From NCBI GenBank assembly GCA_902782465.1, contig CACZNH010000004.1, positions 1-64,000 of the forward strand: a DNA stretch of 64,000 bases, read 5' to 3'. This stretch comes from an uncultured Bacteroidales bacterium. Lineage in GTDB: Bacteria; Bacteroidota; Bacteroidia; Bacteroidales; Muribaculaceae. A program made the translations under genes and the position numbers. Positions within the stretch are counted from its first letter, which is position 1. Every line of letters begins with the position of its first letter. Shown here in pieces: positions 5,204 through 41,625 of the stretch. The notes under the pieces were generated by a model. That model was not told the origin of the DNA. It did not search any database and saw only the letters and a list, made by a program, of their open reading frames with translations.

Positions 5204-5234
5204 GTTTTTAGTTTCTAGTCCTTAGTCCCTAGTT
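5204..5234 (-). repeat. Heptamer-type repeat before hutU
   Basis: On the minus strand the gap reads as degenerate 7-bp units of the form ACTAnnA, ending 11 nt before the hutU start codon. It resembles the larger arrays in the polysaccharide locus, shares the string TTTTTAGTTTCTAGTCC with 17516-17532, and is the only member found outside that locus. Confidence 0.5.
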
Positions 5235-12337: not shown

Positions 12338-12464
12338 TTTAGGCTTTAGGTTTTAGGCTTTAGGTTTTAGGTGGCATCCGCTAACTCCTAACTCCTAACT
12401 CCTAACTTCTAACTCCTAACTCCTAACTTCTAACTTCTAACTCCTCACTTCTAACTGAAAAAAG
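12338..12464 (+). repeat. Composite heptamer element B
   Basis: Left arm: TTTTAGG-type units (12338-12371). Core: GGCATCCGC (12373-12381). Right arm: CTCCTAA/CTTCTAA units to about 12455, ending in AACTGAAAAAAG directly before the ATG at 12465. The arms are complementary in sense (TTAGG against CCTAA), so the element can form a long imperfect hairpin with the core at its tip. Confidence 0.85.
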
Positions 12465-13667
12465 ATGCGTGTATTGCTGGTCAATAAGTTTTACTATCCC
12501 CGGGGGGGCGACTGCGTTGTCGTCCTCAATACCGAGGCGCTGCTGCGTGAAAATGGCGTCGAGGCCGAGGTTTTTGCCATGCAGTATCCCGAGAACCTGC
12601 CCGCGCGTTATCAGGACAGCTTTGCCAGCGAAGTGAGTTTTGGCGGCGGGGTGGGGAACCTGCTGCGTGCCATGGGTCGCACCCTGGGCAAGGGCGATGT
12701 GTGCCAGCGATTTGAGGCGGTGCTCGACGAGTTCCAGCCCGATGTGGTGCACCTGCACAACATCCACAGCTACCTCTCGCCCGTGGTGGGCCTGTTGGCT
12801 CATCGTCGCGGCATCCGCGTGGTGTGGACCCTCCATGACTACAAGCTGCTGTGCCCCCGCTATGACTGTCTGCGTGACGGCAAGCCCTGTGAGCAATGTA
12901 TCGCTGGCGGCAAAATGGGAGTGCTTACTCACCGCTGCATGAAGGGCTCGTTGCCTGCCAGTGCCGTGGCATGGCTTGAGGCGTTGAAGTGGAAACGCCG
13001 CATTCTGGAAGAAAACACCGACCTCTTTGTCTGCCCCAGCCAGTTCATGGCCGACATGATGAAGAAGGGCGGCTTTGACCCCGACAAACTGGTTGTGCTC
13101 ACCAATTTCATCGACCCCATCAAGTTCAGGTATTACCAGGCCATCGACAACACGGATCCGCGAGAGGACTACTATTGCTATGTGGGGCGCTTGAGTGCCG
13201 AGAAGGGTGTTGACCTGCTGCTCGACGTCGCTTCACGCTTGCCCTACCGGCTCAAGGTCGCTGGTGGTGGCCCGCTGGAGCAGGAGTTGCGGGAAAAGTA
13301 CTCGTCCAGTCCGAATATCGATTTCCTGGGCAAACTCGATGCTGACGGTGTGGCACGCGTGCTGACATCTGCCCGCCTGAGTGTCGTCTCGTCGCAATGG
13401 TATGAGAACAACCCGTTGAGTGTCATCGAGTCGCTGTGTGCCGGAACGCCTGTTGCCGGAACGCAAATCGGCGGCATTCCCGAACTGATTGATGAGCATA
13501 GCGGTGTGGTGTTCAAACCCTTTGACCGCGAGGCGATGGCCACCGCCATTACCAAGGCGATGACCCGCCAGTGGAACCATGCCGATATCGCCCGTCGTGC
13601 GCTGCAACGTTTCTCCTCGACGACGCATTTCCAGTCCCTCATACGCGACATCTATCGCCAGGGCTAG
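12465..13667 (+). CDS. Glycosyltransferase, GT4 family
   Basis: Retaining GT-B glycosyltransferase expected to add a sugar to a lipid-linked repeat unit at the cytoplasmic face of the inner membrane. The N-terminal Rossmann half starts MRVLLVNKFYYPRGGD, with DVVHLHNIH near residue 100. The C-terminal half has the donor-binding signature: YVGRLSAEKGVDLLL, the VSSQWYENNPLSVIESLCAGTPV block with its catalytic-type E-x7-E pattern, and GGIPELI. It is the first plus-strand gene of the polysaccharide locus, directly behind a heptamer array. Acceptor and donor cannot be told from sequence. Confidence 0.9.
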   Translation: MRVLLVNKFYYPRGGDCVVVLNTEALLRENGVEAEVFAMQYPENLPARYQDSFASEVSFGGGVGNLLRAMGRTLGKGDVCQRFEAVLDEFQPDVVHLHNIHSYLSPVVGLLAHRRGIRVVWTLHDYKLLCPRYDCLRDGKPCEQCIAGGKMGVLTHRCMKGSLPASAVAWLEALKWKRRILEENTDLFVCPSQFMADMMKKGGFDPDKLVVLTNFIDPIKFRYYQAIDNTDPREDYYCYVGRLSAEKGVDLLLDVASRLPYRLKVAGGGPLEQELREKYSSSPNIDFLGKLDADGVARVLTSARLSVVSSQWYENNPLSVIESLCAGTPVAGTQIGGIPELIDEHSGVVFKPFDREAMATAITKAMTRQWNHADIARRALQRFSSTTHFQSLIRDIYRQG

Positions 13668-13758
13668 ATTCCCCCTTCTCACCATTTTTATGACCGTTGA
13701 CACAATAATTTGCTAATGCATTAGTTAAAATAATGTATAAGCTTATATAACGATAGCA

Positions 13759-14766
13759 ATGAAGAATGTGATTCAGGGCAGTCTGATCACCACTTTCAGG
13801 TGCAATGCGCAGTGCAACATGTGCAATATCTGGAAGTTCCAGACCCACCCGAGCGAAGAAATCGACGCCTCCTACTATGAGAAACTGCCCGCGGGGTTGC
13901 GCATCAACATCACGGGCGGCGAACCCACATTGCGTCCTGACATCGACAGGATTTTTGAAATCCTGTATCCCAAATCCAGCCTGCTGGAACTGAGCACCAA
14001 CGGTTACAACACCAAGAAAATCGTGGAGCTCGCCAACAAATATCCCAACATCCTGATTCGCGTCAGTGTCGAGGGTCTGCCCAAAATCAACGACACCAAG
14101 CGCGGCATCAAGGACGGCTTTGACCACGCCCTGCGCACCATGCTGGAGCTCAAGAAGACCAAGTGCAAGAACATCGGCTTCTCGGTGGTCATTTCTCCCG
14201 ACAACTACATGGACCTGTTGCACCTCTACGACCTGTGCGTCGCCCTCGACGTGGAGCTGGGCAACAGCGCCGTGCACAACTCGTGGTATTTCCACAAGGA
14301 CGACAACCAGATTGAGAGCGAGGAAGCCCTGCGCCAGCACGAACTGTTCGTCAAGGCTCTGCTCACCAGCAAGCGCCGCCATATCAAGGACCGCCTGAAG
14401 GACTACGGCCGGGCCTACTTCAACCGCTCGATTCACCGCCGCCTGCGTGGCGACACCGACGAGTACCGTCCGCCCTGCGGCGCCTTGAGCGACTTCTTCT
14501 TCATCGACCCGTGGGGCAACGTCACGCCCTGCAACGGCAGCGGTGAGGAGTGGATTATGGGCAACATCAAGGAGGACTCCTTCGAGAACATCATGGCCAG
14601 CGACAAGGCCAAGGAGGCGATGGAAAAGGTGCGCCAGTGCAAACGCAACTGCACCTTTATCGTCACCGAGCGCCACGACATGGTGCGCCGTCCCTGGGTG
14701 CCCATCATGTGGGTGCTCAAGAACAAGTGGCGCATCCGCAAGGGCCAAGACCTGTGCTGGGACTAA
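13759..14766 (+). CDS. Radical SAM/SPASM-type protein
   Basis: 335 residues. The radical SAM cluster motif CNAQCNMC (CxxxCxxC) is near residues 16-23, followed by a GGEPTLR segment that fits the SAM-binding GGE motif. The C-terminal part has extra cysteines in a SPASM-like layout: CGALSDFFFIDPWGNVTPC, then CKRNC near residue 300, suggesting an auxiliary iron-sulfur cluster. SPASM proteins usually modify peptides, or sugars in some pathways. Here the gene sits between two GT4 genes, so modification of a sugar or a linked peptide is possible but unproven. No precursor peptide gene was found next to it. Confidence 0.85.
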   Translation: MKNVIQGSLITTFRCNAQCNMCNIWKFQTHPSEEIDASYYEKLPAGLRINITGGEPTLRPDIDRIFEILYPKSSLLELSTNGYNTKKIVELANKYPNILIRVSVEGLPKINDTKRGIKDGFDHALRTMLELKKTKCKNIGFSVVISPDNYMDLLHLYDLCVALDVELGNSAVHNSWYFHKDDNQIESEEALRQHELFVKALLTSKRRHIKDRLKDYGRAYFNRSIHRRLRGDTDEYRPPCGALSDFFFIDPWGNVTPCNGSGEEWIMGNIKEDSFENIMASDKAKEAMEKVRQCKRNCTFIVTERHDMVRRPWVPIMWVLKNKWRIRKGQDLCWD

Positions 14767-14790
14767 CCTCTCATCAAACAACCAAAACAA

Positions 14791-14859
14791 CAAACAACAA
14801 CTTGAACAACTTTATGATATTTTATTTTTTGTTGTTATTGTTGTTCAACGTTGTTCATG
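14791..14859. repeat. Inverted AAC/GTT-rich hairpin
   Basis: The left arm at 14791-14810 (AACAACAACTTGAACAAC) pairs imperfectly with the right arm at 14840-14859 (GTTGTTCAACGTTGTTC), enclosing an AT-rich loop. Two heptamer-type units, ACTGAAG and ACTGAAT, follow and end exactly at the ATG of the next gene (14872-14885). The T-rich loop is not placed like an intrinsic terminator. Confidence 0.6.
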
Positions 14860-14885
14860 TTGTTTGAGAAAACTGAAGACTGAAT

Positions 14886-15917
14886 ATGAAGACGATTGCT
14901 GTGATTGGGACACGCGGGTTCCCTGGCATCCAGGGGGGTGTCGAGGCTCACAGCTATCATCTTTACACCCACATGCAGGACGTGCATGTGCGCCTGTACC
15001 GCCGTCGCGCCTACCTCACCGAGCAGTCGGCCCAGACTTTCCCCAATATCGAGTACATCGACCTGCCCTCGACGCGCATCAAGGGCTTTGAGGCCGTGTG
15101 GCACACCCTGCTGAGCGTGCTGCACATCATGCTGCACCGCCCCGACGTGGTGCACATCCACAACATCGGGCCGGGCATGTTTGCCCCGCTCGTGCGCCTG
15201 ATGGGGCTGCCCGTGGTGCTGACCTATCACAGCCCCAACTATGAGCACAGCAAGTGGAACGCTCCAGCCCGCTGGCTGCTGCGCCAGTGCGACTTTGTCA
15301 ACAAGTACCAGATGGAGAAATGCGGCGCCCTCGACAAGAGTGTCTATATTCCTAACGGCATTGATGCCGTGACACGCAGCGCGTCCACATCATTCCTCGA
15401 CGGGCACGGCATCACCCCCGGTAGCTACCTGCTCGCTGTGGGCCGCCTCACGCCCGAGAAAGGGCTAGAATACCTCGTTGAGGCTGCCAACCGCCTGCCG
15501 CAGGTGGGCCAGGTCGTCATAGCAGGCGCCAGTGACCACGACAGCACCTACCGCGACCTGCTGGAGAGATTGGATACAGGAAAAAAGGTGATTTTTACAG
15601 GCTTTACCGCAGGCGAAGACCTGCGCCAACTCTACAGCCATGCCCGCGCCCTGGTACTTCCCTCGGTCAACGAGGGGTTCCCGATGGTGATGCTTGAGGC
15701 GATGGCCTACGGCCTGCCCATCGTGTGCAGCGACATTCCCGGCACCCGCCAGGTGGAACTGCCCGAGCAGGACTACTTCCCCGTGGGCGACGTCGATGCC
15801 CTGTGTGCCGCCATCTCACGACTGCTCGCAGTCCCCGCCGAGGAGCAGCACTACGACCTTAAACTATACGACTGGAACACCATCGCCGCCACCACCCGCC
15901 AGCAACTGGTTTTTTAA
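14886..15917 (+). CDS. Glycosyltransferase, GT4 family with N-terminal GTRGFPGIQGG motif
   Basis: 343-residue GT-B glycosyltransferase. The start (IGTRGFPGIQGGVEAHSYHL) matches the N-terminal type found in rhamnosyl- and related transferases of capsule loci. The donor half has LLAVGRLTPEKGLEYL, then the VLPSVNEGFPMVMLEAMAYGLPIV block with the conserved glutamates. No signal peptide or membrane segment is seen. It closes the plus-strand group of the polysaccharide locus and converges with the CotH gene. The sugar specificity is unknown. Confidence 0.9.
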   Translation: MKTIAVIGTRGFPGIQGGVEAHSYHLYTHMQDVHVRLYRRRAYLTEQSAQTFPNIEYIDLPSTRIKGFEAVWHTLLSVLHIMLHRPDVVHIHNIGPGMFAPLVRLMGLPVVLTYHSPNYEHSKWNAPARWLLRQCDFVNKYQMEKCGALDKSVYIPNGIDAVTRSASTSFLDGHGITPGSYLLAVGRLTPEKGLEYLVEAANRLPQVGQVVIAGASDHDSTYRDLLERLDTGKKVIFTGFTAGEDLRQLYSHARALVLPSVNEGFPMVMLEAMAYGLPIVCSDIPGTRQVELPEQDYFPVGDVDALCAAISRLLAVPAEEQHYDLKLYDWNTIAATTRQQLVF

Positions 15918-15920
15918 TCC

Positions 15921-15987
15921 CTCCCAACTCCTAACGGCCACGCCAAGGCGAGGCCCTACACTCCTAACTTCTAACTCCTAACTCCTA
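15921..15987. repeat. Heptamer element C with 43-bp duplicated block
   Basis: CTCCTAA-type units surround a GC-rich palindromic insert (GGCCACGCCAAGGCGAGGCC). Bases 15926-15968 are identical to 17562-17604. The element fills the gap between the convergent GT4 and CotH genes. Confidence 0.85.
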
Positions 15988-15988
15988 A

Positions 15989-17449
15989 CTATTCTTGTCC
16001 CCACTGCTCGTTGAGCCAGGCGATTTTCTTTTTCAGGCATTGATTGCGGGTGAAGTTGATTCTGCCCTTGATATTGTCGCATTCCGACTTGGGCCAGCGG
16101 TTGTGGTCACAGTTGCCTGCCGCCTCGATTTTGTCACCGAATTCATTCAGGAACAGGTCCAGTTGGGGATAAACCTCGGTGTAGAAACGCTGCCAGTGCT
16201 GTCGCACGCACTCTTGAAACCTGGGGAACTTGGCAATCTCAGCAATCCAACGCAAATGGAGGTTACTGGAAGTGTTGTCATAGATGAAGTGGTCGAATTC
16301 ATAGGTCGAAGTGTAGCGGGAAAAGGAACTGCCAAAGTCCCAAAGGGGACCAAAAATCAGTTTGGTGCTGTCGCCGCGCTGCTTGTGGAAATAGCAACTG
16401 CCATGAAATCCCTCCAGGTTGTCCATGATTTCCTGGATGATGTAGAAAACGGCCAGCGAATCCATGTCGATGTAGCGTTCCCACTCGGTGCTGGTCTTGT
16501 CCTCGCAGTAGATGGCACTGTCAGCATGCATGAGAAAGTCGGTCATGTAAGTCCGCTGAACGTAGCTCAATTCTTCGGGAGAATGTGGTGTTACCCAGAA
16601 ATGCCATCCGTTGCCCTCGGTGAACGCAATCTGGCCGGGTTCATAGTAGTTGTCAATCTCCAATAGCCACCCGCCGGTCACTTTGGTGGAATCGGTCTCT
16701 CGGTCTTTCTGCTTGACGATATTGACACGGTTCTTATCGACGCGGATTTTCTCGGTCATGTGGTACAGGCCGATGTATTGCCCGTTAAGTACCACCTCAA
16801 TGGGCACTTGACGGGGATTCCAAGACATGCCCATCTGGCGTCCGATTTCAAATGGCAGGGCATCGTTGATTTGACCAATCCAGTAATCAGCTCCACTAAT
16901 CAGCACCCAGTGTTGGCTCGACGGCATACCCAGTACGGGGAGAGCTTGGATGAACTTGAGGCGGAACGGCTTCTTGTCGTGATTTGTCCACGTATAATTG
17001 CCGCGCCCCTTGATTTGCATCCCTAGTGGTGCCTCGGCCGAGCCGATGGACGTATAGCCGTCGATGTCCATGGCGTCGAGCCACCACATGGCGTATACAT
17101 ATTCGTCCTTGCTGACAATGTCGCGTTTCCCCTCGGTAATGATGTACATCACGGGCAGTGTCCCCGAGTAGGTGGGCATGGGTGGCAGCTCGTCGCCCAT
17201 GATGGCACCGATGACGGCATTCAGGTCGCTGATGTTGATGACGTGGTCGCCGTTGATGTCGTAGGCGTAGGTGTAAAGGGCGTGATAGGGCTTGTCATTG
17301 AAGATGGCCTCGATGATGGCATTCACATCGGCGATGTTCACCGTCCAGTCACAATTCACGTCACCACGGGGCCGCAAACCTGACTGTCCTGCAATAGACA
17401 GACAGGACACGAAAACGGCAAACAGGCTTGTCAATATACGTATTCTCAT
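15989..17449 (-). CDS. Secreted CotH-kinase family protein with N-terminal dockerin-like repeats
   Basis: 486 residues. A signal peptide (about 1-21) is followed by two dockerin-like calcium-loop repeats at about 28-88: DVNCDWTVNIADVNAII and DINGDHVINISDLNAVI. The CotH region follows: KGRGNYTWTNHDKKPFRLKF, LNGQYIGLYHMTEKI, GGWLLEID and FGPLWDFGSSF. CotH proteins are atypical protein kinases first known from spore coats; in Bacteroidetes they are common secreted proteins of unclear role. The gene ends the minus-strand polysaccharide series, but a different function, such as surface attachment, cannot be excluded. Its repeats are N-terminal, unlike the other dockerin-bearing proteins here. Confidence 0.85.
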   Translation of the reverse strand: MRIRILTSLFAVFVSCLSIAGQSGLRPRGDVNCDWTVNIADVNAIIEAIFNDKPYHALYTYAYDINGDHVINISDLNAVIGAIMGDELPPMPTYSGTLPVMYIITEGKRDIVSKDEYVYAMWWLDAMDIDGYTSIGSAEAPLGMQIKGRGNYTWTNHDKKPFRLKFIQALPVLGMPSSQHWVLISGADYWIGQINDALPFEIGRQMGMSWNPRQVPIEVVLNGQYIGLYHMTEKIRVDKNRVNIVKQKDRETDSTKVTGGWLLEIDNYYEPGQIAFTEGNGWHFWVTPHSPEELSYVQRTYMTDFLMHADSAIYCEDKTSTEWERYIDMDSLAVFYIIQEIMDNLEGFHGSCYFHKQRGDSTKLIFGPLWDFGSSFSRYTSTYEFDHFIYDNTSSNLHLRWIAEIAKFPRFQECVRQHWQRFYTEVYPQLDLFLNEFGDKIEAAGNCDHNRWPKSECDNIKGRINFTRNQCLKKKIAWLNEQWGQE

Positions 17450-17513
17450 GATGAAAGCTATTTAAGGTCAGTCTGTAACAATAACGTGCTTTTACCCACC
17501 TTTATTGCGTTTA

Positions 17514-17604
17514 AGTTTTTAGTTTCTAGTCCTCTCTAGTAACTTCTAACTCCAAACTTCTAACTCCTAACGGCCACGCCAAGGCGAGGCCCTACACTCC
17601 TAAC
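17514..17604 (-). repeat. Heptamer element D overlapping a gene end
   Basis: Heptamer-like units (17514-17570) join the 43-bp block shared with element C (17562-17604). The block runs into the coding sequence of the GT4 gene at 17592-18680 and supplies its last three codons and its TAG stop. Confidence 0.85.
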
Positions 17605-18680
17605 ATTTTTCTTGCGCATGCCACATTGGTCAGCTCTTTACCCTCGATGACGCAAGCTTGATGCATCTTGCCGTAGTCGTTGATGACCTTGATGAGGTCG
17701 TTCTCGTCCCAATTGTCACGGGCAATGCCCAGCCCCCTGGCAGCAATAAACGAGGCGGTGGAGGGCTTGGTGTTTGTCACCACAGGTGTGCCGCTGGTAA
17801 TCGCTTCGGCAATGGTCACCATGTTCAAGTCGCTGCTGGTGTCCACGAGCAGTGCCAGTGAGCGGCGCAGGGGCTCGGCCAACTGCTTATGGCTCATGAA
17901 TCCATGGAAAACCACGTTATTCTCAATACCCAGCGATGTAGTCAACCGCTTCAGCTCATCGGCCTGGTCGCCGTCTCCGATGATGTCCAGACGGTAGTCC
18001 CGATAGCCTGCTTGGCCGACGAGTAGGGCAAACTTATGGATAATCCTGTCCACACGCTTGCGCTGCACCAGTTGAGAGACGACGATGAAGGCTTTGTCCA
18101 CCTCGTCGCATGGATAGAGTGTGCGGGCGTCTGTGCCGTGATCGACAATCACGTCGCTCACATGGCGGCTATAACGGCTGATGAACCGGCGTGCCGGCTC
18201 GCTACGGGGCACAATAGTCACCTTGCCCATGAACAGCGGCACGATAATGTGGTGCCACAGTCTTGAAGGCAACTTGAACAATAGTTGCTGGTGACGGTCC
18301 AGTTCCTGCCAGATAATGAGTCGCTCGGGGCAGACGCGGGCAGCGATGAGTGAGGAAATCTGGAAAGTCTCACTGGCGATGATCAGGTCGTAGTCGGCTG
18401 CATGGTGTTTGAGCCAGTGACACAGCCCCTTGGGCCAAGGCAGCAGTGTGGGCTTGAACACCTGAGGCAGGCGTGATGGGAAATACACGACCTCAAAGGG
18501 CATGTCATCATCCTTGCCGGTGGGCTTGAACTCCTCGCTGGCAAGCAACGTGACGCAATGCCCCAACTTGATGAAGCCGCGGGCGAAGTTGCTGATCATG
18601 CAATCGCCGATGGACTCCTTGCGCTTGATGATGCCATGCTCAGCGGTCGATAGGATGCAGTTGATGATGAGAATCTTCAT
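17592..18680 (-). CDS. Glycosyltransferase, GT4 family
   Basis: 362 residues from the ATG at 18680 (MKILIINCILS); the frame extends six codons to a GTG at 18698, which I reject because ATG gives the normal Rossmann start. Donor-domain features are FIVVSQLVQRKRVDRII, NVVFHGFMSHKQLAEPL and LLVDTSSDLNMVTIAEAITSGTPVV. It starts 24 bp after the beta-helix gene on the same strand. The final residues LGV and the stop lie in a repeat shared with 15926-15968, so the C-terminus may have been rewritten by the repeat. Confidence 0.88.
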   Translation of the reverse strand: MKILIINCILSTAEHGIIKRKESIGDCMISNFARGFIKLGHCVTLLASEEFKPTGKDDDMPFEVVYFPSRLPQVFKPTLLPWPKGLCHWLKHHAADYDLIIASETFQISSLIAARVCPERLIIWQELDRHQQLLFKLPSRLWHHIIVPLFMGKVTIVPRSEPARRFISRYSRHVSDVIVDHGTDARTLYPCDEVDKAFIVVSQLVQRKRVDRIIHKFALLVGQAGYRDYRLDIIGDGDQADELKRLTTSLGIENNVVFHGFMSHKQLAEPLRRSLALLVDTSSDLNMVTIAEAITSGTPVVTNTKPSTASFIAARGLGIARDNWDENDLIKVINDYGKMHQACVIEGKELTNVACARKMLGV

Positions 18681-18703
18681 GGCTGATGGATTCAGCACTG
18701 ACC

Positions 18704-20389: not shown

Positions 20390-20392
20390 ATC

Positions 20393-20430
20393 TTTTAGTT
20401 TTTAGACTTTAGACCTTAGACTTTAGTTTT
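20393..20430 (-). repeat. Heptamer element E
   Basis: On the minus strand, units of the ACTAAAn/TCTAAAG type end three bases before the ATG at 20389. It lies between the GT4 gene at 20437 and the beta-helix gene. Confidence 0.65.
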
Positions 20431-20436
20431 CGTTTA

Positions 20437-21567: not shown

Positions 21568-23054
21568 ACGGTCAGCACGGTTACCGGTATTTCTTCGTTC
21601 TCTTTTTCCTCCTCATTTTGCCGCTCGGCAATCGCACGTCGCTTGGAGGCTTCTACAGTTTCAAATTCGGGATGCTCCTCGGCGGCATAGTGACGGTTGA
21701 GTGAGAAAGCAATGAACATGAGCGATATGGTAAGCGCTTGCGGGGTGAGCGGGTTCCAGTCGCTGTTGCCCTGCACCAGCATACAGCAGATCATGCCCAG
21801 TCCCGTAATGTTCAGTATGTTGTAATAGCGGTTCTGGGAGAGCTTTGTCCGTCGCTTGAAGGTCGCGATGTACCAGATGATGAATCCCAAGATGGGCAGG
21901 AAACCGATGAGTCCCAACTCATCGACAAGGATAATCCAGATGTTATGGATAGGGTTGGAGAACATGAACTCTTCAGGCTGAAAGATGTCGGCAGCATCAA
22001 AAATCTGCTCAAACATCATGGCGGAACTGTTCTCGACCAGATAGCTCAAGTGGCCGTTAAGCCCCACACCCACCAGCGGATGGTCCTCGAAAATCTCATA
22101 GCCGCAATAGTAGTGCATCAGGCGTGACGTGGTCATTTCATCCAGGTTGTCCACATCACTAAACAGGAAGCTCAAGGGACCGGTCAGCAACAGGGCAATG
22201 ATGACGCCCAGGGGGACGATACCCTTGAGGATACTCTGCAAACTCAGAATCTTGTGGCGTCTGAAGACATAGAATACCACAATCACCAATAGTGAGAACA
22301 CGATAGAGGCCAGCGCACTGCGGCTGGCGCTGAACACGATGACCAGGAAAGCCAGTCCTGCAAAGATGCCGCTCATACGGCGCTTGTAGTTGGTCAGGAA
22401 ACATGCCGTAAAGAACGCGAAATAGTAGGACGCGTAAGTGCCCAGTCCGTTGGGGTGAGCCATCGTGCCCACGGCACCTGCACGCTCGTCGTTGCGCGTC
22501 ACAGCATCGACATCAAACAACTTGATGGCGGCTTCCATGTTCATGACCGGATACAGGAAGCACAAGAAGATGTGAAGTGCGACGGTCAGCGTCAGTCCCA
22601 TAAAGATGCCGTTTACCACATTCTTCACCGAGAAACTGTTGGCAAACAGGTACATGAACACCGCAAATGCCAGCAGATAGATAACAGCAGCGATGGTCTG
22701 GAGCCGTGACACGTCATAGGGGTTGGCTATCGTGTAGCCGGCATAAGCCAGGAAGATGAGAAACAGCCAGAGGTTGGGACGCCGGATGCGCCAATGCCTG
22801 TCGCGGGCGATAATCCAGATAAGCACGACCGACAAGGCATAGAACGGCCATATCGCCACACTGGCACCGAAGGAGCCTTCGGTCTCAGTGGCTGCCTTGA
22901 AGACAGGTAGGTACAAGCGGGTGAAACAGCACGAGAAGGTATAGAGCGCGATGATGATTTCATAGATGCGCGCTTTGCTCATGCGGAGTCCCTGGCGTGC
23001 GATGAAGAAAAACAACGCAAATCCCAGGGTGACAAATATGAGCGCTCTATCCAT
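21564..23054 (-). CDS. O-antigen polymerase/ligase family membrane protein (Wzy-like)
   Basis: 496 residues with about ten or more hydrophobic segments and a long loop near residues 280-370, the layout of Wzy/WaaL proteins. The loop contains GYEIFEDHPLVGVGLNGHL, the HPLxGVGxG motif of the O-antigen ligase domain. In this setting (Wzx, Wzc and Wza upstream) polymerisation of repeat units in the periplasm is the likely role rather than ligation. The C-terminal tail is unusually charged (KRRAIAERQNEEEKENEE). It overlaps the next GT4 gene by four bases. Confidence 0.85.
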   Translation of the reverse strand: MDRALIFVTLGFALFFFIARQGLRMSKARIYEIIIALYTFSCCFTRLYLPVFKAATETEGSFGASVAIWPFYALSVVLIWIIARDRHWRIRRPNLWLFLIFLAYAGYTIANPYDVSRLQTIAAVIYLLAFAVFMYLFANSFSVKNVVNGIFMGLTLTVALHIFLCFLYPVMNMEAAIKLFDVDAVTRNDERAGAVGTMAHPNGLGTYASYYFAFFTACFLTNYKRRMSGIFAGLAFLVIVFSASRSALASIVFSLLVIVVFYVFRRHKILSLQSILKGIVPLGVIIALLLTGPLSFLFSDVDNLDEMTTSRLMHYYCGYEIFEDHPLVGVGLNGHLSYLVENSSAMMFEQIFDAADIFQPEEFMFSNPIHNIWIILVDELGLIGFLPILGFIIWYIATFKRRTKLSQNRYYNILNITGLGMICCMLVQGNSDWNPLTPQALTISLMFIAFSLNRHYAAEEHPEFETVEASKRRAIAERQNEEEKENEEIPVTVLTV

Positions 23055-23091
23055 GCTGGTACAGGCTGCTTAATCGCCGCGGTGGGGCGGG

Positions 23092-25425
23092 TTAGTTGTC
23101 GTCCTTCTGATTGTTGTTCAGACCGTAGCCGTAGGTGTTGTCGTTGCTCGGCTTGGTGTCGTTGAGCACGACGCAGATGTTCTTCAACTGCTTGTTGGCG
23201 GCGATGCGGTTCATGAACTTGATGTGGTTGCGGCGCGTGTAGTTGGCACGGGTCACATAGACGGTGGCGTTGGTGTACTTGTCCAGGGCGAAGCTGTCGC
23301 TCACTTGGGCCACGGGTGCCGAGTCCACGATAATCACGTCATACTGCTCGCGCAGGTCGCGGAAGAAGTCCTTCACGCGGTCACCCAGCAACAGCTCTGA
23401 CGGGTTGGGCGGAATGGCACCGCCGACGAACACGTCCAGGCCCTTGACCTCCTTGCACTGCTGTGCAATCTGGTCGAGGGTGACATCGCTGCGCGACAGG
23501 TAAGAGGTAACACCGGGCAACTCGTTCAGGTCGAGCATCTGGGCCAGCTTGGGCGAGCGGATGTCCATGCCCACCAGTGCCACGCGCTTGCCCAGCAGAG
23601 CAAACGATGAAGCGATGTTGGTGCTGACAAACGACTTGCCCTCGCCGCTCACGCTGCTGGTGACCAGGATGACCTTGTCGTCCTCCTTGTTGAGGATGAA
23701 CTGCAGGTTGTTGCGGATATAGCGGAACAGCTCGACAATCGACGAGGTCTTGCCGTCCTTGACGACGAGCTGGGTGTGGTGACGGTTGTGGTGGATGTGT
23801 CCGATGAAGGGCACCTGGGTGAGTTCCTCCAGCTCTTCCTGGTTGGCGAACTTGGTAGTGAACAGGTCCTTCAGGTAGAGCAGCAACAGCGGCAGGAAGA
23901 AGCTGGCCAGCAGCATCAGCGCATAGACAAACATCCTGTTGGGGCTGATGGGCGTGTGCTGGGCGTAGGCGTGGTCCACAATCTTGCCCTTGGGCGTGGT
24001 GGCTGCCAGTACCAGGTTGTTCTCCTCACGCTTCTCGAGCAGGAAGGTGTACAGGGTGTTCTGGATGCCCTGGTTACGCAACAGCTCGCGGGCTTCGCGC
24101 TCCTCGGTGGGTACACGGCTGAGTTCGCCGGAGGTTTTGCCCGACTCGCTGCGGATTTTGCCAATCTGCATATCCAGTCCGCGGATGGAGCTGTTCACAC
24201 CCTGCAGCACGTTGTTGTGCATATCGTCAATCTGGGTTTCGAGCTGCTTGAGGGCGATGTTGTCGCCCTTGGCACTCAGTTCCAGCTCCTGGCGCTGTGC
24301 CAGCAGGTTATTGTAGGCCTTGATGGCAGCCGAGGCACCGCTGGAATCGACGGCAAAGGGAATGTAGGAACGCTTGTTGGCGGGATTGTTCACGAAGTCA
24401 CGCACCATGGCCAGAATCTGCCTGTTGGTCTCCAGCTTGATGAGGGCGCGGTCGTTGAGTTCCTGCTTGGTGACGGCACTCTTGATTTGCAGCTCGGGGT
24501 CCACAATCTTGTGGGCGCGCTTGTAGGCCTCGATGTCGGCCTCGCTGCTTGTCAAGCCCTTGTAGATGAGCGCCAGACGCTCGTCGATGAACTTGGCCGT
24601 GTTGATGGCCTGTTCGTCTTTCTCCCTTTGTCCACGCTCGTTGTACAGCTCCATGAGCTTGTTGAGGATGTCCTTGCCGCGCTCGATGTTGTTCTCGGCC
24701 AGCGACAGGTTGATACCGCTCGACTTCTTGTTGGCGAGCTTGACCTTGATGCGACGGTTCAGGATTTCGCCTTTCAACTGGTTGTTGATGAGGCTTGCGG
24801 TGACATGGTAGGGTTTGCCGCCCTTGAATTTCTCGGTGGCCTTGATGGCAAACACGCCATAGCTGGTCTTGACCGTGGTGGGCAGGGTGGCATCCTTGAC
24901 CTGGGCGAGCTCTTTCTTGCCCTTGGTGGCCTTGATGGTAGCGAGTCCCTGCTTGTTCACGTCAATCTTGAACTTCAGTCCTGACGACAGGGTGTCAAAA
25001 AACTCCTCGGGGACAACGACCTCGACGGGCGAGGTGTTGTAGTGGTCCCTCTTGGGCTTGTACCAGCCCTTGTCCTCGACATAGGAACGGTTGAGGCCGA
25101 GTTGCTTGACGACCTCGGTACACAGCTCCTGGGAGGAGAATACCACCATCTCGTCATCGACCTTGCTGCCCTGGCCCATGAGTTTCATGCTCTTGAGCAG
25201 GTTGGCACCGGCACCGGCGCCGTTGTCTTCCTGCGCCACGAGCACGACGGCCTTGACATTATAGATGCGTTGGGCATACTTGAGATAGGCCATTCCCAGA
25301 GCCACACAGGCAATGAGCGACAGCAGGAATAACCACCAGTAGCGCTTGTACTTGCGGACAAACGCGCTGAAATCGATGATTTGCTCCTCTTGTTGAGGGG
25401 TCGGGGGAGTATTGAATTGTGCCAT
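23092..25425 (-). CDS. Polysaccharide co-polymerase with tyrosine autokinase domain (Wzc-like)
   Basis: 777 residues controlling chain length and export. An N-terminal Wzz-type region has a membrane segment at about 33-52, then a long periplasmic part with coiled-coil stretches (about 240-480) and a second membrane segment near 500. A cytoplasmic BY-kinase domain follows with Walker A SSVSGEGKSFVSTN near residue 590, Walker A' VALVGMDIRSP, and Walker B-type VIIVDSAP. The C-terminal tail has only two tyrosines (TYGYG), fewer than the cluster found in E. coli Wzc. It starts next to a heptamer element and follows wza. Confidence 0.92.
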   Translation of the reverse strand: MAQFNTPPTPQQEEQIIDFSAFVRKYKRYWWLFLLSLIACVALGMAYLKYAQRIYNVKAVVLVAQEDNGAGAGANLLKSMKLMGQGSKVDDEMVVFSSQELCTEVVKQLGLNRSYVEDKGWYKPKRDHYNTSPVEVVVPEEFFDTLSSGLKFKIDVNKQGLATIKATKGKKELAQVKDATLPTTVKTSYGVFAIKATEKFKGGKPYHVTASLINNQLKGEILNRRIKVKLANKKSSGINLSLAENNIERGKDILNKLMELYNERGQREKDEQAINTAKFIDERLALIYKGLTSSEADIEAYKRAHKIVDPELQIKSAVTKQELNDRALIKLETNRQILAMVRDFVNNPANKRSYIPFAVDSSGASAAIKAYNNLLAQRQELELSAKGDNIALKQLETQIDDMHNNVLQGVNSSIRGLDMQIGKIRSESGKTSGELSRVPTEEREARELLRNQGIQNTLYTFLLEKREENNLVLAATTPKGKIVDHAYAQHTPISPNRMFVYALMLLASFFLPLLLLYLKDLFTTKFANQEELEELTQVPFIGHIHHNRHHTQLVVKDGKTSSIVELFRYIRNNLQFILNKEDDKVILVTSSVSGEGKSFVSTNIASSFALLGKRVALVGMDIRSPKLAQMLDLNELPGVTSYLSRSDVTLDQIAQQCKEVKGLDVFVGGAIPPNPSELLLGDRVKDFFRDLREQYDVIIVDSAPVAQVSDSFALDKYTNATVYVTRANYTRRNHIKFMNRIAANKQLKNICVVLNDTKPSNDNTYGYGLNNNQKDDN

Positions 25426-25429
25426 ATTC

Positions 25430-25509
25430 GTTTCAGTTTTCAGTTTTCAGTTTTCAGTTTTCAGTTGAACGCGGATGCCGCTGACAACTGAGAACTGACG
25501 ACTGAAAAC
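25430..25509 (-). repeat. Composite heptamer element F
   Basis: Plus-strand view: TTTTCAG units, core GCGGATGCCGC (25471-25481), then TGACAACTGAGAACTGACGACTG. Read on the minus strand, ACTGAAA units end about five bases before the Wzc start codon. The TCAG and CTGA arms are complementary around the core, and the core itself is a small hairpin (GCGG-ATG-CCGC). Confidence 0.85.
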
Positions 25510-25518
25510 AATGTATGT

Positions 25519-26325
25519 TTATCGGGTGAGGGCGATGACGAGTGATGCGATGACCGACACGCTGCTCACGATGGTCGAGGTGACCGACAGTTTAAAGGCG
25601 TTGTTTTGGTTGTACTTTGAGTTGTCGATGCGGATTTGGTTAGGCTCGACATAGACGATGTCGTTCTGACGCAGGTAGAAATACGGGTCGGAGAACACCT
25701 CACTGTTGGTCAGGTCCAGGCGGTGATAGGTGCGCTCGCCGTTCTCGGTGCGGATGACGAACACGCGGTCTCGCTGGCCATATTCGGTCAGGTCGTTGCA
25801 TGTGGCCAGGGCGTCGAGGACGGTAAAATGCTGACGCTCGGCAACAACACGCTGGGGCACGCGTACCTCGCCCATCACATCGACGGTGAAATTCACGATG
25901 TCAACCTTGACATAAGGGTCCTTGACATCCTTGGCGACCATCGCTGTGACCTCGTTGGCAATCTGCTCGGTGGTCTTGCCGGCGACGTGGATGCGTCCCA
26001 GCAGGGGCAGCATGATGTCGCCCTGCTTGTCGACGATATAGGTCTGGGTGCGCGGCTGGGTGGCCATGCGCAGTGCGTTGCGAGTCGCGGGATTCTCAAG
26101 CGGCAGGTTATAGGCTGCAGTAGCCTCGGGAACGGCCGAGGTGACAGCGACGATAAGCTCGTCGTCGGGCTGGACGACGATGGGATAGCTGCTTTGAGGA
26201 TTAGGCAGAACGCCACTGGGAATGTCATTCAGGTTATGGAAATAAGCAAGGTTGTTCTCCTTGTTGGTTTTGCACGAGAACAACATGACCGATGCAACCA
26301 GCATGATAAGTAATCTAGATTTCAT
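25519..26325 (-). CDS. Polysaccharide export outer-membrane lipoprotein (Wza-like)
   Basis: 268 residues with a lipoprotein signal (VMLFSCKT, Cys 18). It contains the export domain (about 50-150: YPIVVQPDDELIVAVTS, VDKQGDIMLPLLGRIHVAGKTTEQI), then a soluble ligand-binding beta-grasp region (VMGEVRVPQRV, NDIVYVEPN) and a C-terminal hydrophobic segment. It is smaller than E. coli Wza, as usual for Bacteroidetes. It should form the outer-membrane channel working with the Wzc protein encoded next. Confidence 0.92.
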   Translation of the reverse strand: MKSRLLIMLVASVMLFSCKTNKENNLAYFHNLNDIPSGVLPNPQSSYPIVVQPDDELIVAVTSAVPEATAAYNLPLENPATRNALRMATQPRTQTYIVDKQGDIMLPLLGRIHVAGKTTEQIANEVTAMVAKDVKDPYVKVDIVNFTVDVMGEVRVPQRVVAERQHFTVLDALATCNDLTEYGQRDRVFVIRTENGERTYHRLDLTNSEVFSDPYFYLRQNDIVYVEPNQIRIDNSKYNQNNAFKLSVTSTIVSSVSVIASLVIALTR

Positions 26326-26329
26326 TCTT

Positions 26330-26411
26330 TTTCAGTTTTTAGTTTTCAGTTTTCAGTTTTCAGTTGAATGCGGATGCCGCTGACAACTGACGACTGACAA
26401 CTGACGACTAC
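26330..26411 (-). repeat. Composite heptamer element G
   Basis: Near copy of element F: TTTTCAG units, core GCGGATGCCGC (26370-26380), then TGACAACTGACGACTGACAACTGACGAC. On the minus strand its ACTGAAA arm ends a few bases before the Wza start at 26325. The two elements bracket the wza gene. Confidence 0.85.
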
Positions 26412-26453
26412 GTTTTTACTTTTAAAAACGATGAATCACGCCAATTATTTTAT

Positions 26454-27896
26454 TTAATGATGTGTTTTAGTGATTTTGCTCTGCCACAAGTCGCGTAACT
26501 CGTTGCGGTACAGCCATGCCAGCACAGCGACTACTGCGAGAGAAAAGAGGATGTCAATGGCGATGGAACGGCTGTAATAGAAGGGGAGGGCGCCCAGGAG
26601 CATCGCACACACGGGAATGGCGGTGCGCGGCTCAATCTTGAGCACAAAATAGCGCTTCATGTCAAACCAGCGATAGGTGACCAGCACGAGATAGGTAACG
26701 AGCTGGGTGATGATGACGCCATACACGCCCAATGGCTTGATGAGCAGGAAGTTGAGACTGACATTGACGATGGCGGCAAGGACGATGGCAGGCAACGTGC
26801 GCTTGGTGTCGAGAGCACACTGGTAACCCATGTCGAAGAAGGCCGCCACGGCAAATACCACCGCCGACAAGCCCAGCGGATAGATGTAATTGAGGCTTTC
26901 ACGGTATTCTGGAGCCACGAGCCATCCGTAATTAATCTTGAGGGCAAAAACGTAGCCGATGAAGATGAGCGACAACAGGAAGATGTAGCTGTTCAACATC
27001 TTGGAGAAGAAGCGGTTGCGGTCAGGGCTATGGTATTGCAGAATGGCGGTTTCCTGCCATGCCTGGTAGAAGATGATGGCCAGTGTGTAGATGATGCCGG
27101 TGAAGCGGATGGCGACGGCATAGACACCGTTGACGTCCAGTCCCAGGAAGTGGGAGATGAACAGGCGGTCGCTGCTGCCGGTGAGCCACCAGCACAGTGA
27201 ACCGGGCATCAGGGGCAGGGTATAGCGGATGATGTCGCGCGCCACCTTGCGGGTGTTGATGTGCCAGCGCGTGTGGCGGCTGATGAGCCTTACCTTGCTC
27301 TCGACGATGAGCAGGGCCACGATGCGGGCCAGGATATTGGCCAGGAAGATGCCACGGATGCCCCATCCCATGCCGGCGACAAAGATAATGCTGAACAGGC
27401 CGATGCCCATTGCCGAGAGAATACCTACCGAGACAAAGGCGCGGTTGTTGCCCAAGCCACGGAAGACTTGGGAATAGACCTCCTGCAGCGACATGGCGAT
27501 GAGCAGCCCAACGATATAGCCCAGGTACTGTACGGGGTAGCACAATGCGATGACCAGCGCGATGAGCAGCGACAGCGTGAGGCTGCTGGCAAGGGTGCGT
27601 GCCACGAATGACACAATGCGCCTGCGTTGAACGTCTTCGTTGCAGTCAAGCAGGAAGCGGAAGGCGCCATCGCGCAGCTGCAGGGTGAAAAATGGAATCA
27701 GCAGCAGGCAAATCTGCAGACACACGTCGTAATAGCCGAAATCGGAGGTCTCATGCACAAAATAGGTGTACAGCGGCACCATCATGAATGTAATGAGCTT
27801 GGAGCCGATGTTGCCGATGGCATAAATACCTATGTCTTTCAGGAACTTGGATCCCCGATTGGCGGTTATGTTTGTCTTGTCGCTTGCTTCTTTCAT
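26454..27896 (-). CDS. Polysaccharide flippase (Wzx/MATE-like)
   Basis: 480 residues from the ATG at 27896; the frame runs on to a TTG at 27923 but that stretch is the promoter. Twelve to fourteen hydrophobic segments fill the protein, with an N-terminal motif FLKDIGIYAIGNIGSKLI typical of the polysaccharide biosynthesis/oligosaccharide flippase family. It should flip undecaprenyl-linked repeat units across the inner membrane. It is the first gene of the minus-strand polysaccharide series. The -7 box ends only about 13 bp before the ATG, so its mRNA leader must be very short. Confidence 0.9.
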   Translation of the reverse strand: MKEASDKTNITANRGSKFLKDIGIYAIGNIGSKLITFMMVPLYTYFVHETSDFGYYDVCLQICLLLIPFFTLQLRDGAFRFLLDCNEDVQRRRIVSFVARTLASSLTLSLLIALVIALCYPVQYLGYIVGLLIAMSLQEVYSQVFRGLGNNRAFVSVGILSAMGIGLFSIIFVAGMGWGIRGIFLANILARIVALLIVESKVRLISRHTRWHINTRKVARDIIRYTLPLMPGSLCWWLTGSSDRLFISHFLGLDVNGVYAVAIRFTGIIYTLAIIFYQAWQETAILQYHSPDRNRFFSKMLNSYIFLLSLIFIGYVFALKINYGWLVAPEYRESLNYIYPLGLSAVVFAVAAFFDMGYQCALDTKRTLPAIVLAAIVNVSLNFLLIKPLGVYGVIITQLVTYLVLVTYRWFDMKRYFVLKIEPRTAIPVCAMLLGALPFYYSRSIAIDILFSLAVVAVLAWLYRNELRDLWQSKITKTHH

Positions 27897-27909
27897 TGTA
27901 TTTGCGCGG

Positions 27910-27941
27910 CAAAGATAGTGCAAGCCGAGCGGAATGCCAAA
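27910..27941 (-). promoter_or_regulatory. Promoter of the minus-strand polysaccharide operon
   Basis: On the minus strand TTTG (27938-27941), 20 bp, TATCTTTG (27910-27917): a full match to the Bacteroidetes consensus, with the ATG only 13 bp beyond the -7 box. Confidence 0.8.
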
Positions 27942-28078
27942 TTTATTTGAGCATTTCAGAGGCGCAGCCTATCTTCGCCGTCAGGCAAAGGTGCAAAATA
28001 TTTGGTTTTTTAGCCTCTCTTTCGACAAATGTTTGTAACTTCGCATCACTTTTCAGCTTTTATGTGTTGGCGCTTGTG

Positions 28079-28125
28079 ACTGACAACTGAAAACTGACAA
28101 CTGAAAACTGACAACTGAAAACTGA
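28079..28125 (+). repeat. Heptamer element H, perfect 14-bp tandem
   Basis: Three perfect copies of the 14-mer ACTGACAACTGAAA plus ACTGA end at base 28125; the next base begins the ATG. A weak TAACTTCG box lies at 28036-28043 with no -33 match, so the array is probably transcribed as a 5' leader. Confidence 0.9.
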
Positions 28126-29175
28126 ATGATTAAGACAATCAACTCGTGGCGAGGACTGATGGCGGTCACTGTGGTGCTGTTCCATGCCGGCGTGGACTGG
28201 ATGTGGAACATTGCCGTGACGGGTGTGACCTTCTTTTTCATCTCCAGTGCCTTCCTGCTGTCGATGCGGCATCCGTTTGAACGGCTGCAGGCAAGGGACT
28301 GCGGCAGATTTGTCCTGGCCCATGCCTTAAAGCTCTATCCGCTCCACTGGCTCGCTCTGGCTGCCCTCATTGCCATTACTGTGCTGTATCACACCTCGGC
28401 GGTGGACTGGAGTGCGGCAGGCTTGAGTGCCCTGCTGTTGCAGGCATGGTCGCCAGTCCACGATGTCCATTACGGCCTCAATCCCGGTGCGTGGTACTTG
28501 AGCGCATTGTTCTTTTGCTATGCTATCTATCCCTTTGTCTCACACTGGATTGGGAAGTGGAAACTATGGGCACAGCTAGCACTCATCGCCGTGCTGGTGG
28601 TGACGTTGGGCCGGATACTGCTGCCGCTGGACATTCCGCACCGCGAGGCGGTATTTGTCAATCCCATGTCCCACGTGCTTGACGTGGTGGTGGGCGTGAC
28701 ACTGTTCCATATCTACCGCCTGCTCAAGGTCCGTTTTCCGCGTGTGGGACATGGCACGGCGACGCTCATCGAGGTGGGTGCCCTGCTTCTGCTGGCGCTG
28801 GTGATTGGCATCAATTACATGACAACGTGGCTCAAGCCGTGGGAAGATGTCATCAACTGGCTGTTGCCGCAGGGAGCCATCCTGGTGGCTCTGGCGTTTC
28901 TTGACGGCCAGGAAGGCATTATCGGACGCATATTGCTGTGGAAACCGCTGCAGTGGCTGGGCAGCATCAGCTTTGAGGTCTATGTGCTGCAGTTTGTAGC
29001 CTTCCTCCTGTTCAACTACATGTTGACTCCGGTGCTCGGGCACTTTGGCTGGCGTGTTGACAACCAGCTCCATTGGTTTGCCCTGGTGGTGCTTATACCG
29101 CTGTCGTGGCTGGTAAACCGCTACTTTACCCGCCCGCTGGGTGCCTGTTTGAGAAGGTTGACCGATTGCCGATAG
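28126..29175 (+). CDS. Membrane acyltransferase, acyltransferase-3 family
   Basis: 349 residues with about ten hydrophobic segments. The family start motif SWRGLMAVTVVLFHAG (with the conserved RG and FH) lies at residues 5-20, and FFFISSAFLLS follows in the next helix. These inner-membrane enzymes transfer acetyl or other acyl groups to surface glycans, so it may acylate the product of the neighbouring locus. It is paralogous to the next gene (shared NGW/NSW starts and WLGxISFEV/I near residue 280), separated by a 47-bp gap. Confidence 0.9.
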   Translation: MIKTINSWRGLMAVTVVLFHAGVDWMWNIAVTGVTFFFISSAFLLSMRHPFERLQARDCGRFVLAHALKLYPLHWLALAALIAITVLYHTSAVDWSAAGLSALLLQAWSPVHDVHYGLNPGAWYLSALFFCYAIYPFVSHWIGKWKLWAQLALIAVLVVTLGRILLPLDIPHREAVFVNPMSHVLDVVVGVTLFHIYRLLKVRFPRVGHGTATLIEVGALLLLALVIGINYMTTWLKPWEDVINWLLPQGAILVALAFLDGQEGIIGRILLWKPLQWLGSISFEVYVLQFVAFLLFNYMLTPVLGHFGWRVDNQLHWFALVVLIPLSWLVNRYFTRPLGACLRRLTDCR

Positions 29176-29189
29176 CCGTTGGTAACCAT

Positions 29190-29222
29190 ACTTACAACTT
29201 AAAACTTACAACTTAAAACTTA
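29190..29222 (+). repeat. Heptamer element I, perfect 14-bp tandem
   Basis: Two perfect copies of ACTTACAACTTAAA plus ACTTA end exactly at the ATG at 29223. The layout is identical to element H but every G of the unit is replaced by T. Confidence 0.9.
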
Positions 29223-39896: not shown

Positions 39897-39970
39897 GCCT
39901 CTTTAGCTCAGTTGGCCAGAGCACGTGATTTGTAATCTCGGGGTCGTTGGTTCGAATCCGACAAGAGGCT
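39897..39970 (+). tRNA. tRNA-Thr (anticodon TGT)
   Basis: 74 nt. Acceptor arms GCCTCTT and AAGAGGC pair fully, with T as discriminator; the anticodon loop TTTGTAA gives TGT (39931-39933); T-arm GGTTCGAATCC is present. CCA is not encoded. One mismatch in the anticodon stem. Confidence 0.93.
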
Positions 39971-39988
39971 CAAAGAACATAACACAAT

Positions 39989-40071
39989 GGGTAGATTCCA
40001 GAGTGGCCAAATGGGGCAGACTGTAAATCTGCTGCGTCATCGCTTCGGTGGTTCGAATCCATCTCTACCCA
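39989..40071 (+). tRNA. tRNA-Tyr (anticodon GTA)
   Basis: 83 nt with the long variable arm of a class II tRNA. Acceptor GGGTAGA pairs with TCTACCC; anticodon GTA at 40023-40025; T-arm GGTTCGAATCC. CCA is not encoded. Confidence 0.95.
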
Positions 40072-40079
40072 CTTGTTTT

Positions 40080-40152: not shown

Positions 40153-40169
40153 CAAGAACAGAAAAAATT

Positions 40170-40241
<72 letters not shown>

Positions 40242-41573: not shown

Positions 41574-41625
41574 TCAACTAGTCTTCAAAGCCGGCTCGAA
41601 GAGAGAGCCGTGGCACACAAATAAC

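Follow-up and report, generated by a model that had tools for sequence, protein, structure and literature searches.

Paired heptamer repeat arrays beside stop and start codons in the genome of an uncultured Muribaculaceae bacterium

The closest described relatives of the elements treated here are the TAACTGA repeats, reported from one Beggiatoaceae genome with further cases in Cyanobacteria and five Bacteroidetes (MacGregor, 2015; PMC4679880). In the main Beggiatoaceae genome these repeats end just 5′ of start codons and translational control was suggested, in a Microcystis sample only 6 of 22 intergenic sets were forward (PMC4679880), and in Thiomargarita TAACTGA was merely counted (PMC4853749). 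Heptamers of another kind, GGGAATC and GGGGATT, have been described in Xanthomonas and Nostoc (Rehm, 2015; PMC4692102), a report that also gives an earlier idea in which seven is the contact length of DNA polymerase. Here we analyze arrays of 7-bp units in an uncultured gut bacterium of the Bacteroidales (Muribaculaceae), starting from the first 64,000 nucleotides of contig CACZNH010000004.1 (assembly GCA_902782465.1), which as a whole are called the window below, and extending to other parts of its genome and to related genomes.

The arrays share with TAACTGA repeats the direct 7-bp repetition, a mostly intergenic location (126 of 130 arrays here) and a unit containing AACT. Moreover, repeats of the main Beggiatoaceae genome are mostly forward, end a few nucleotides before starts and accompany few Shine-Dalgarno (SD) sites, much as all 51 start-side arrays are forward here and 51 of 62 forward arrays lie close to a start. 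They differ in the many related units found within one genome, in recurring cores and in an inverted arm anchored to the stop codon; the TAACTGA unit itself (ACTGATA in the ACTNANA register) is not the main unit of this genome, and other 7-bp units were found in Bacteroides and Parabacteroides. The TAACTGA repeats are not described as having an inverted partner as a rule (PMC4679880), whereas both arms are present here in 34 of 77 junctions at a looser threshold or 24 of 80 at a strict one. The Xanthomonas and Nostoc heptamers are likewise found between aligned genes near starts or stops, with some inverted pairs and with lengths that differ between close relatives; however, they are G-rich formers of G-quadruplexes on the non-coding strand near starts, whereas the present units are A-rich on the coding strand (PMC4692102). 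The Kozak-like, SD-less leaders of Bacteroidetes resemble the arrays in having A at -3 and -6 and low structure before the AUG, features found favourable in Flavobacterium, but they are non-repeated, whereas the arrays stretch such a composition over tens of nucleotides (PMC6847099). Repetitive extragenic palindromic (REP) elements, GTAG palindromes that accompany REP-associated tyrosine transposases (RAYT), are also short, dispersed and intergenic, whereas here the arms are tandem heptamers of variable number whose abundance does not clearly track Y1 transposases (PMC3733652). The preliminary description of the window knew of no name for this class, which the published TAACTGA repeats contradict; the new variant is the paired, stop- and start-anchored form, for which we found no description in the open-licence literature, and this is not proof that none exists.

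Polarity, anchoring and abundance of the arrays

Period-7 arrays were collected from 864 kilobases (kb), the window and 40 further stretches, that make up 28% of the genome (3.13 Mb, 45 contigs). Intergenic sequence is 15% of this DNA and holds all but four of the 130 arrays. Seven of the 130, mostly genic or at the edge of a stretch, were dropped, and the tests of polarity and distance cover 105 arrays in gaps between co-directional genes. Genes were called by our own script, which in a check on 50 kb of Escherichia coli (self-trained) found 44 of the 46 stops and placed 32 of the 46 starts exactly. A first polarity test on A/T content found 50 A-rich arrays and one T-rich on the start side, and 27 T-rich, 26 A-rich and one equal on the stop side. 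The stop side remained unclear by this measure because GAGTTAG-like units are balanced, so a rule was adopted instead, chosen after the units had been seen, by which an array is forward if ACT or CTA is read in gene sense and inverted in the opposite case. By this rule all 51 start-side arrays are forward, while the stop side has 41 inverted, 11 forward and two undecided; the inverted arrays comprise 27 T-rich, 13 A-rich and one of equal composition.

The two polarities are anchored to different ends of the gap. Within 15 nucleotides of a start lie 51 of 62 forward arrays, where random placement in each array's own gap predicts 27.3, and within 15 nucleotides of a stop lie 35 of 41 inverted arrays (12.4 expected); none of 5000 random placements was as extreme. 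In gaps of 100-150 nucleotides, 9 of 12 forward arrays are at the start (3.0 expected; 2 of 3000 placements as high), and in gaps of at least 150 nucleotides the figures are 4 of 11 for forward arrays at the start (1.2 expected; 60 of 3000 placements) and 6 of 9 for inverted arrays at the stop (0.7 expected). Anchoring thus persists in roomy gaps, and tight packing is not its sole cause. The preliminary description had named beforehand a lack of orientation and distance bias toward start codons as what would speak against it, and on the 28% of the genome covered here the bias was found; its placement of arrays before starts is upheld, and it missed the inverted stop-side arm. Among 80 junctions classified at the strict threshold, 24 carry an inverted followed by a forward array and none the reverse order, 37 have a forward array only, 17 an inverted array only and two are others; with a looser threshold for the partner, 77 junctions divide into 34, 26, 14 and three, respectively. 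Single arrays keep to their own end, forward-only arrays reaching the start in 32 of 37 cases and inverted-only arrays the stop in 15 of 17.

Three consecutive ACTNANA units match the genome 412 times and the reversed pattern not once. Given that hits had guided part of the choice of the first 20 stretches, abundance was estimated from 480 kb unpicked for array hits (one stretch was selected for a Y1_Tnp match), in which a unit-blind scan found 49 period-7 arrays; control periods of 5, 6, 8, 9, 10, 11 and 13 gave 1, 2, 4, 7, 1, 1 and 0. Extrapolation from this sample suggests about 320 arrays per genome. Letter-shuffled sequence gave none against 81 real arrays in the first 464 kb (partly picked for hits), and 50 kb of E. 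coli scanned at ten periods gave no array at any. The units are mainly ACTGAAA, ACTTAAA, ACTAAAA and ACTGACA, with CTAAAGC and TAACTCC in addition. The preliminary description had placed nearly all arrays in a polysaccharide locus, but they are not confined to it: arrays occur on each of the first four listed contigs and before housekeeping genes, including those for LpxC, an LpxA-like protein, an acetate-kinase-family protein and an electron-transfer flavoprotein, and by eye the genes behind arrays have no evident common function.

Short cores recur between or beside the arms. The core AGTAANCNTACT occurs 15 times in the sample, always beside arrays (reversed control 1), GGCGA[TA]AGTAA[TC]C 12 times, always beside arrays (reversed control 0), and GGCATCCGC 57 times (reversed control 8), with 30 occurrences intergenic and 19 of those beside arrays. 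Any of these cores is present in 17 of 24 inverted-then-forward junctions, 15 of 37 forward-only and 2 of 17 inverted-only ones. Element types were assigned by a rule written after the elements were seen; in co-directional junctions, ACTGAAA-type elements have GCATCCGC in sense in 10 of 10, and TTTAGGC-type elements have their core five times in sense and four times in antisense. Two related loci, L065 and L066, carry the ACTGAAA-type core in antisense between lpxC and lpxA (by eye), so the sense rule is not absolute across species.

Arrays and neighbouring features of the window

The preliminary description listed ten places with 7-bp repeats, and Tandem Repeats Finder together with direct reading located repeats at all ten. 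It had also counted seven or more arrays ending near an ATG; read by eye with the frames, eight of the ten stop 0-12 nucleotides 5′ of one. Three listed arrays, beginning at 12338, 25430 and 26330, are indeed repeats but not single ones, each being two opposite-polarity arrays that flank a short core and had been merged.

The first of these (12338-12464) opens on the plus strand with a stop-side inverted arm (TTTAGGC/T)5 at 12338-12372, directly 3′ of the stop of a YchF-like gene (11255-12337), followed by the core GGCATCCGC at 12373-12381 and a start-side array (CTAACTC/T)n at 12381-12456, 8 nucleotides before the ATG of a glycosyltransferase gene (12465-13667). The second (25430-25509), on the minus strand, has a start-side array (ACTGAAA)5 at 25431-25466, about 5 nucleotides before the ATG of a Wzz/ParA-like gene (23092-25425), a core at 25467-25481 with GCGGCATCCGC in gene sense at 25471-25481, and a TTGTCAG-like inverted arm at 25481-25509, after the stop of a gene ending at 25519. 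The third (26330-26411), also on the minus strand, has the same order: a start-side array (ACTGAAA)5 at 26329-26365, a core at 26366-26380 with GCGGCATCCGC in gene sense at 26370-26380, and a stop-side inverted arm (TTGTCAG/TCGTCAG) at 26380-26409. Its start-side array stands 3 nucleotides from position 26325, where the polysaccharide export gene that ends at 25519 probably starts, or 24 nucleotides away if the gene caller's start at 26304 is taken.

Further start-side arrays are a degenerate A-rich one at 5204-5234 (minus strand), about 11 nucleotides before the start of a urocanase gene (3165-5192); one of two units only at 14872-14885 (plus), abutting the ATG of a glycosyltransferase gene (14886-15917); and a CTAAAGT-like one at 20393-20430 (minus), 3 nucleotides before the ATG of the gene 18704-20389. 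Two on the plus strand run into the ATG of acyltransferase genes with no nucleotide between: 28079-28125, a 14-bp higher-order repeat (ACTGACA ACTGAAA)3.4 before the gene 28126-29175 with RNA predicted to be nearly unfolded, and 29190-29222, (ACTTACA ACTTAAA)2.4 before the gene 29223-30305. Higher-order periods of 14 or 21 are seen in several window arrays.

Two listed arrays are not close to a start. The one at 15921-15987 lies where two stop codons converge, with no start and no assigned strand, and its TAACTCC-type arms enclose a GTAG-flanked palindrome (15936-15959). The mixed array at 17514-17604 (minus) has a palindrome of the same type at 17572-17595, overlaps the stop of the gene 17592-18680 and stands about 65 nucleotides off a start at 17449; the gene caller puts this start at 17341, still more distant. 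This REP-like palindrome, GTAGGGCCTCGCCTTGGCGTGGCC on the minus strand, stands at both sites between TAACTCC units and has more copies in loci L034, L043 and L046. By reading, with no systematic test, a GTAG/CGTC tag is present in this core and absent from the two main ones. A second dispersed palindrome, starting GTAGAGACGC, has eight copies in the 864 kb, six of them intergenic (reversed control 0), with sites at L037 6716, L038 8516, L149 3802 and L153 11759.

Elsewhere in the window, 39897-53196 holds five tRNA genes, followed downstream by those for RNA polymerase beta and beta′ (45080-48883 and 48898-53196), and no period-7 array was found in this interval. No Rfam family lies over the window arrays, the six hits of the window being the five tRNAs plus, at 54739-54958 and upstream of a frame at 54976, a riboswitch of the cobalamin family (RF00174, 88 bits). 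A 9-bp tandem repeat, TATAGAAGC (6.7 copies), lies at 183-242 within a minus-strand frame at 33-599.

Related genomes and turnover of the units

The nearest LpxC relatives, among the best 80 matches, are uncultured Bacteroidales assemblies, mostly from ruminants, at 92-96% identity, with Ca. Sodaliphilus at 77%. Three consecutive ACTNANA units are matched in 48 of 61 genomes of the genus (this genome included) and in 84 of 296 genomes sampled across the phylum, and in both tables this genome has the most matches. A unit-blind scan of parts of ten congeners found 12 period-7 arrays in G034, 27 in G027, 11 in G053 and one in G040 (28.5 kb), the stretches of G027 and G053 having been picked for hits; eight arrays of other units in G015, which has no ACTNANA match; one in G050; and none in 140, 54, 33 and 40 kb of G060, G011, G045 and G037, respectively. 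All five two-armed congener junctions are inverted-then-forward and none the reverse. On the start side nine congener arrays are forward and one undecided, and on the stop side 12 are forward, eight inverted and six undecided. Unit composition is specific to the genome, agreement within genomes exceeding that between genomes by 0.149 (reached in 0 of 2000 shuffles of the labels, in a comparison limited to the ACTnAnA units of four genomes), and in G053 ACTGATA makes up 32% of units.

The period extends further than the sequence. Period-7 arrays number 7 in B. xylanisolvens (an evenly spaced 400 kb), 20 in a Parabacteroides metagenome-assembled genome and 9 in B. cellulosilyticus, against at most 1, 4 and 1 at other periods; the last two samples were partly picked for hits, most of the Parabacteroides stretches among them. 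In Parabacteroides, with ATAAATC-like units, the start side is A-rich in five of five arrays and the stop side T-rich in five, A-rich in two and equal in one. B. cellulosilyticus has three co-directional arrays, one A-rich at a start and one T-rich and one A-rich at stops, and B. xylanisolvens, with TAAGTAT-like units, departs from the pattern, its sole start-side array being T-rich and its stop-side arrays A-rich in two cases and equal in one. Period 7 therefore persists in both Bacteroides and Parabacteroides, with a clear polarity only in the latter.

At the lpxC-lpxA junction of related loci, inverted pairs were recognized by eye in L125, L128, L129, L130 and L132, and 177 kb of Barnesiella and similar loci held no arrays. 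Comparison with empty sites at this junction involved sequences too diverged to reveal the ends of an insertion. The suggestion in the preliminary description that copy number could vary is borne out by L065 and L066, which are 97.3% identical over lpxC and whose arrays differ by 28 and 42 bp, equal to four and six units. No other internal indel of the 7-kb alignment is as large, and just two more reach 10 bp (24 and 10 bp), both in one diverged gap.

Units of this type also occur in contigs of the IMG/VR viral collection, at least 120 stretches of which contain four consecutive ACTGANA units. In 138 such loci (L236-L373; G + C content 23 to 70%), 59 of 201 forward arrays and 18 of 201 reversed ones stand before an ATG that opens a 60-codon frame, compared to 324 of 4000 random positions, counts that include related contigs more than once.

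A possible leader role and competing explanations

The DNA establishes how the elements are built, that stops and starts anchor them, that their period is seven and their units genome-specific, and that in one species pair they changed by whole units. As to what the arrays do, a promoter-like TANNTTTG is present in 6 of 79 array junctions against 75 of 219 others, and in the three start-adjacent arrays with such a sequence in their gap it lies upstream of the array every time. Given that arrays lie mostly in promoter-poor gaps of gene runs, and in those three cases downstream of TANNTTTG, they should be transcribed as intercistronic or 5′ leader RNA, and probably both arms are. Leaders with a forward array (57 junctions) contain 52% A at -20 to -1, compared to 36% in 151 array-free ones; over the same positions the predicted unpaired probability is 0.618 against 0.498 (p = 3e-5), and for the AUG 0.504 against 0.410 (p = 0.03). 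A stands at -3 in 75% of array leaders and 44% of others, and SD-like motifs occur in 2 of 55 against 22 of 360. Such leaders have the characters of SD-independent Bacteroidetes leaders, being A-rich, with A at -3, weak structure and no SD. The register of the unit relative to the ATG is random (p = 0.77), which rules out a fixed register and suggests that composition matters rather than a fixed contact. Codons of array genes are slightly closer to those of the RNA polymerase region of the window (p = 0.013).

Folding depends on the presence of both arms. Three two-armed window elements form predicted hairpins with z = -7.2, -6.1 and -3.4 against shuffles, three one-armed arrays fold little (z from -0.5 to 0.4), and the convergent element at 15915-15991 is on par with shuffles (z = 1.1); in the fold of the two ACTGAAA-type elements of the window, 14 and 17 nucleotides before the AUG stay unpaired. 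Inverted and forward arms of the same junction pair at -22.5 kcal/mol compared to -18.2 for swapped arms, a modest effect (69 of 5000 swaps as low), and many junctions mix unit types. Of the 130 arrays, 121 have a forward-strand unit that includes a stop codon, where letter shuffles predict 64, as do 21 of the 27 distinct units (11.2 expected). Since seven is not a multiple of three and stop codons are present in most units, the majority of arrays would also end translation in every frame shortly 5′ of the start. The stop of the upstream gene lies inside the array in 30 of 60 cases; TAG is over-used before inverted arrays (15 of 44 against 73 of 603, p = 3e-4), and TGA shows no excess before forward arrays (5 of 16, p = 0.56).

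We propose, at about even confidence, that the arrays serve as transcribed A-rich leaders for SD-independent initiation, carried on a slippage-prone and partly selfish repeat. The dispersed intercistronic element would consist of a stop codon, an inverted and often T-rich heptamer arm, a short core, an A-rich forward arm and a start codon, and either arm could be absent. The forward arm would supply the next gene with a long, weakly folded, SD-less leader of the type preferred by Bacteroidetes ribosomes, and the inverted arm would pair with the upstream portion of the forward arm in an intercistronic hairpin. Unit number would rise and fall by slippage, and A-rich growth at starts may be retained because it is harmless or helpful to initiation.

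Several observations weigh against this proposal. Stop-side anchoring is as strong as start-side anchoring, so that a leader role alone is an insufficient account, and at the looser threshold forward-only junctions exceed inverted-only ones by just 26 to 14 (p = 0.08). In four congeners only 9 of 21 forward arrays lie within 15 nucleotides of a start, with gene-call weights trained on the present genome, and 5 of 8 inverted arrays within 15 nucleotides of a stop, hence anchoring there is weaker. A period-7 array stands at lpxC-lpxA in 5 of 30 congeneric loci and before lpxC in 3 of 30, and this fast turnover, together with the 13 of 61 genomes that lack three consecutive ACTNANA units, implies that no gene needs an array. 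Some viral-collection contigs (e.g., L332) have a unit upstream of an SD-like site and ATG, so the arrays are not a simple replacement of SD sites. The stop-codon tally comes from related units, so its 130 cases are not independent, and the contrast of array and non-array genes cannot separate function from the A-richness of the repeat itself.

Several of these points sit well with a neutral or selfish satellite, in which slippage and template switching make and spread heptamers in permissive intergenic space. In a palindromic element, whichever strand is read, the left arm is inverted and the right arm forward, so that polarity would follow from symmetry and not from function. All 24 two-armed junctions of this genome and the five of the congeners have this order, the two anchorings are equal, arrays also stand between converging stops, the TTTAGGC-type core is five times in sense and four in antisense, copy number changed by four and six units between close species with units varying by genome, and many junctions of close relatives lack an array. 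However, ACTGAAA-type elements have unlike arms with the core in sense in 10 of 10 (though antisense in L065 and L066), 32 of the 37 forward-only arrays reach the start, viral-collection arrays precede an ATG more often forward than reversed (59 against 18 of 201), and placement at starts holds in roomy gaps. We regard a purely neutral satellite as a serious but lesser possibility and favour the leader role on a slippage-prone repeat, because palindrome symmetry accounts less well for single forward arrays at starts, for the preference of unlike-armed elements for the sense orientation and for the forward excess in the viral collection.

Rather improbable, in our judgement, is that the units bind a trans-acting RNA-binding protein regulating many genes together, as proposed for TAACTGA (MacGregor, 2015). 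Units common to dispersed loci and differing between genomes are what a co-evolving reader would require, and the location before starts agrees with PMC4679880. On the other hand, one genome mixes ACTGAAA, ACTTAAA, CTAAAGC and TAACTCC units, array-led genes share no function evident by eye, and the cold-shock domain (PF00313) and CsrA (PF02599), two of the three candidate families named in PMC4679880, as well as RRM proteins (PF00076), each have 0 of 61 among the genomes of the genus (ribosomal protein S1 was not searched for), absences that make such a regulator less likely. Less credible still is a mobile element of REP type or of the miniature inverted-repeat transposable element (MITE) type moved by a Y1 (RAYT) transposase. 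The recurring cores AGTAANCNTACT and GGCATCCGC, the GTAG-tagged palindromes flanked by some arms and the presence of four genomic sites with five Y1_Tnp matches between them are suggestive of it, but over 61 genomes the Y1_Tnp count does not clearly track arrays (Spearman 0.21, p = 0.098), leaving dependence on RAYT unsupported; in G052, with 99 array matches, no Y1_Tnp was found, and G015 has nine Y1_Tnp and no ACTNANA match. Intrinsic terminators or attenuators between genes are very improbable, despite the strong folding of two-armed elements (z to -7.2), since the 3′ side of the hairpin is A-rich without a U tract, at the strict threshold the forward arm stands alone in 37 of the 80 array junctions, and none of 20 terminator-like hits in 11500-30000 lies inside a listed array, which rules out terminators for the window.

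For the Bacteroidales at large we suggest, quite tentatively, that the period of seven and not the sequence is the conserved property of intercistronic cassettes that are anchored to stops and starts, close all three frames and supply an A-rich leader, with such cassettes spreading and being homogenised inside each genome into a species dialect, and whole-unit changes retuning translation across operons. The exact period poses the question of why seven. A single polarity rule, A-rich and forward before starts and inverted after stops, may unite scattered reports of bacterial heptamers, and in its paired form the repeat may act as an uncommon signal to begin protein synthesis. If the extrapolation holds, some 300 related leaders of naturally varied length in one genome would be a ready test set for how ribosomes of Bacteroidetes find starts independently of SD sites.

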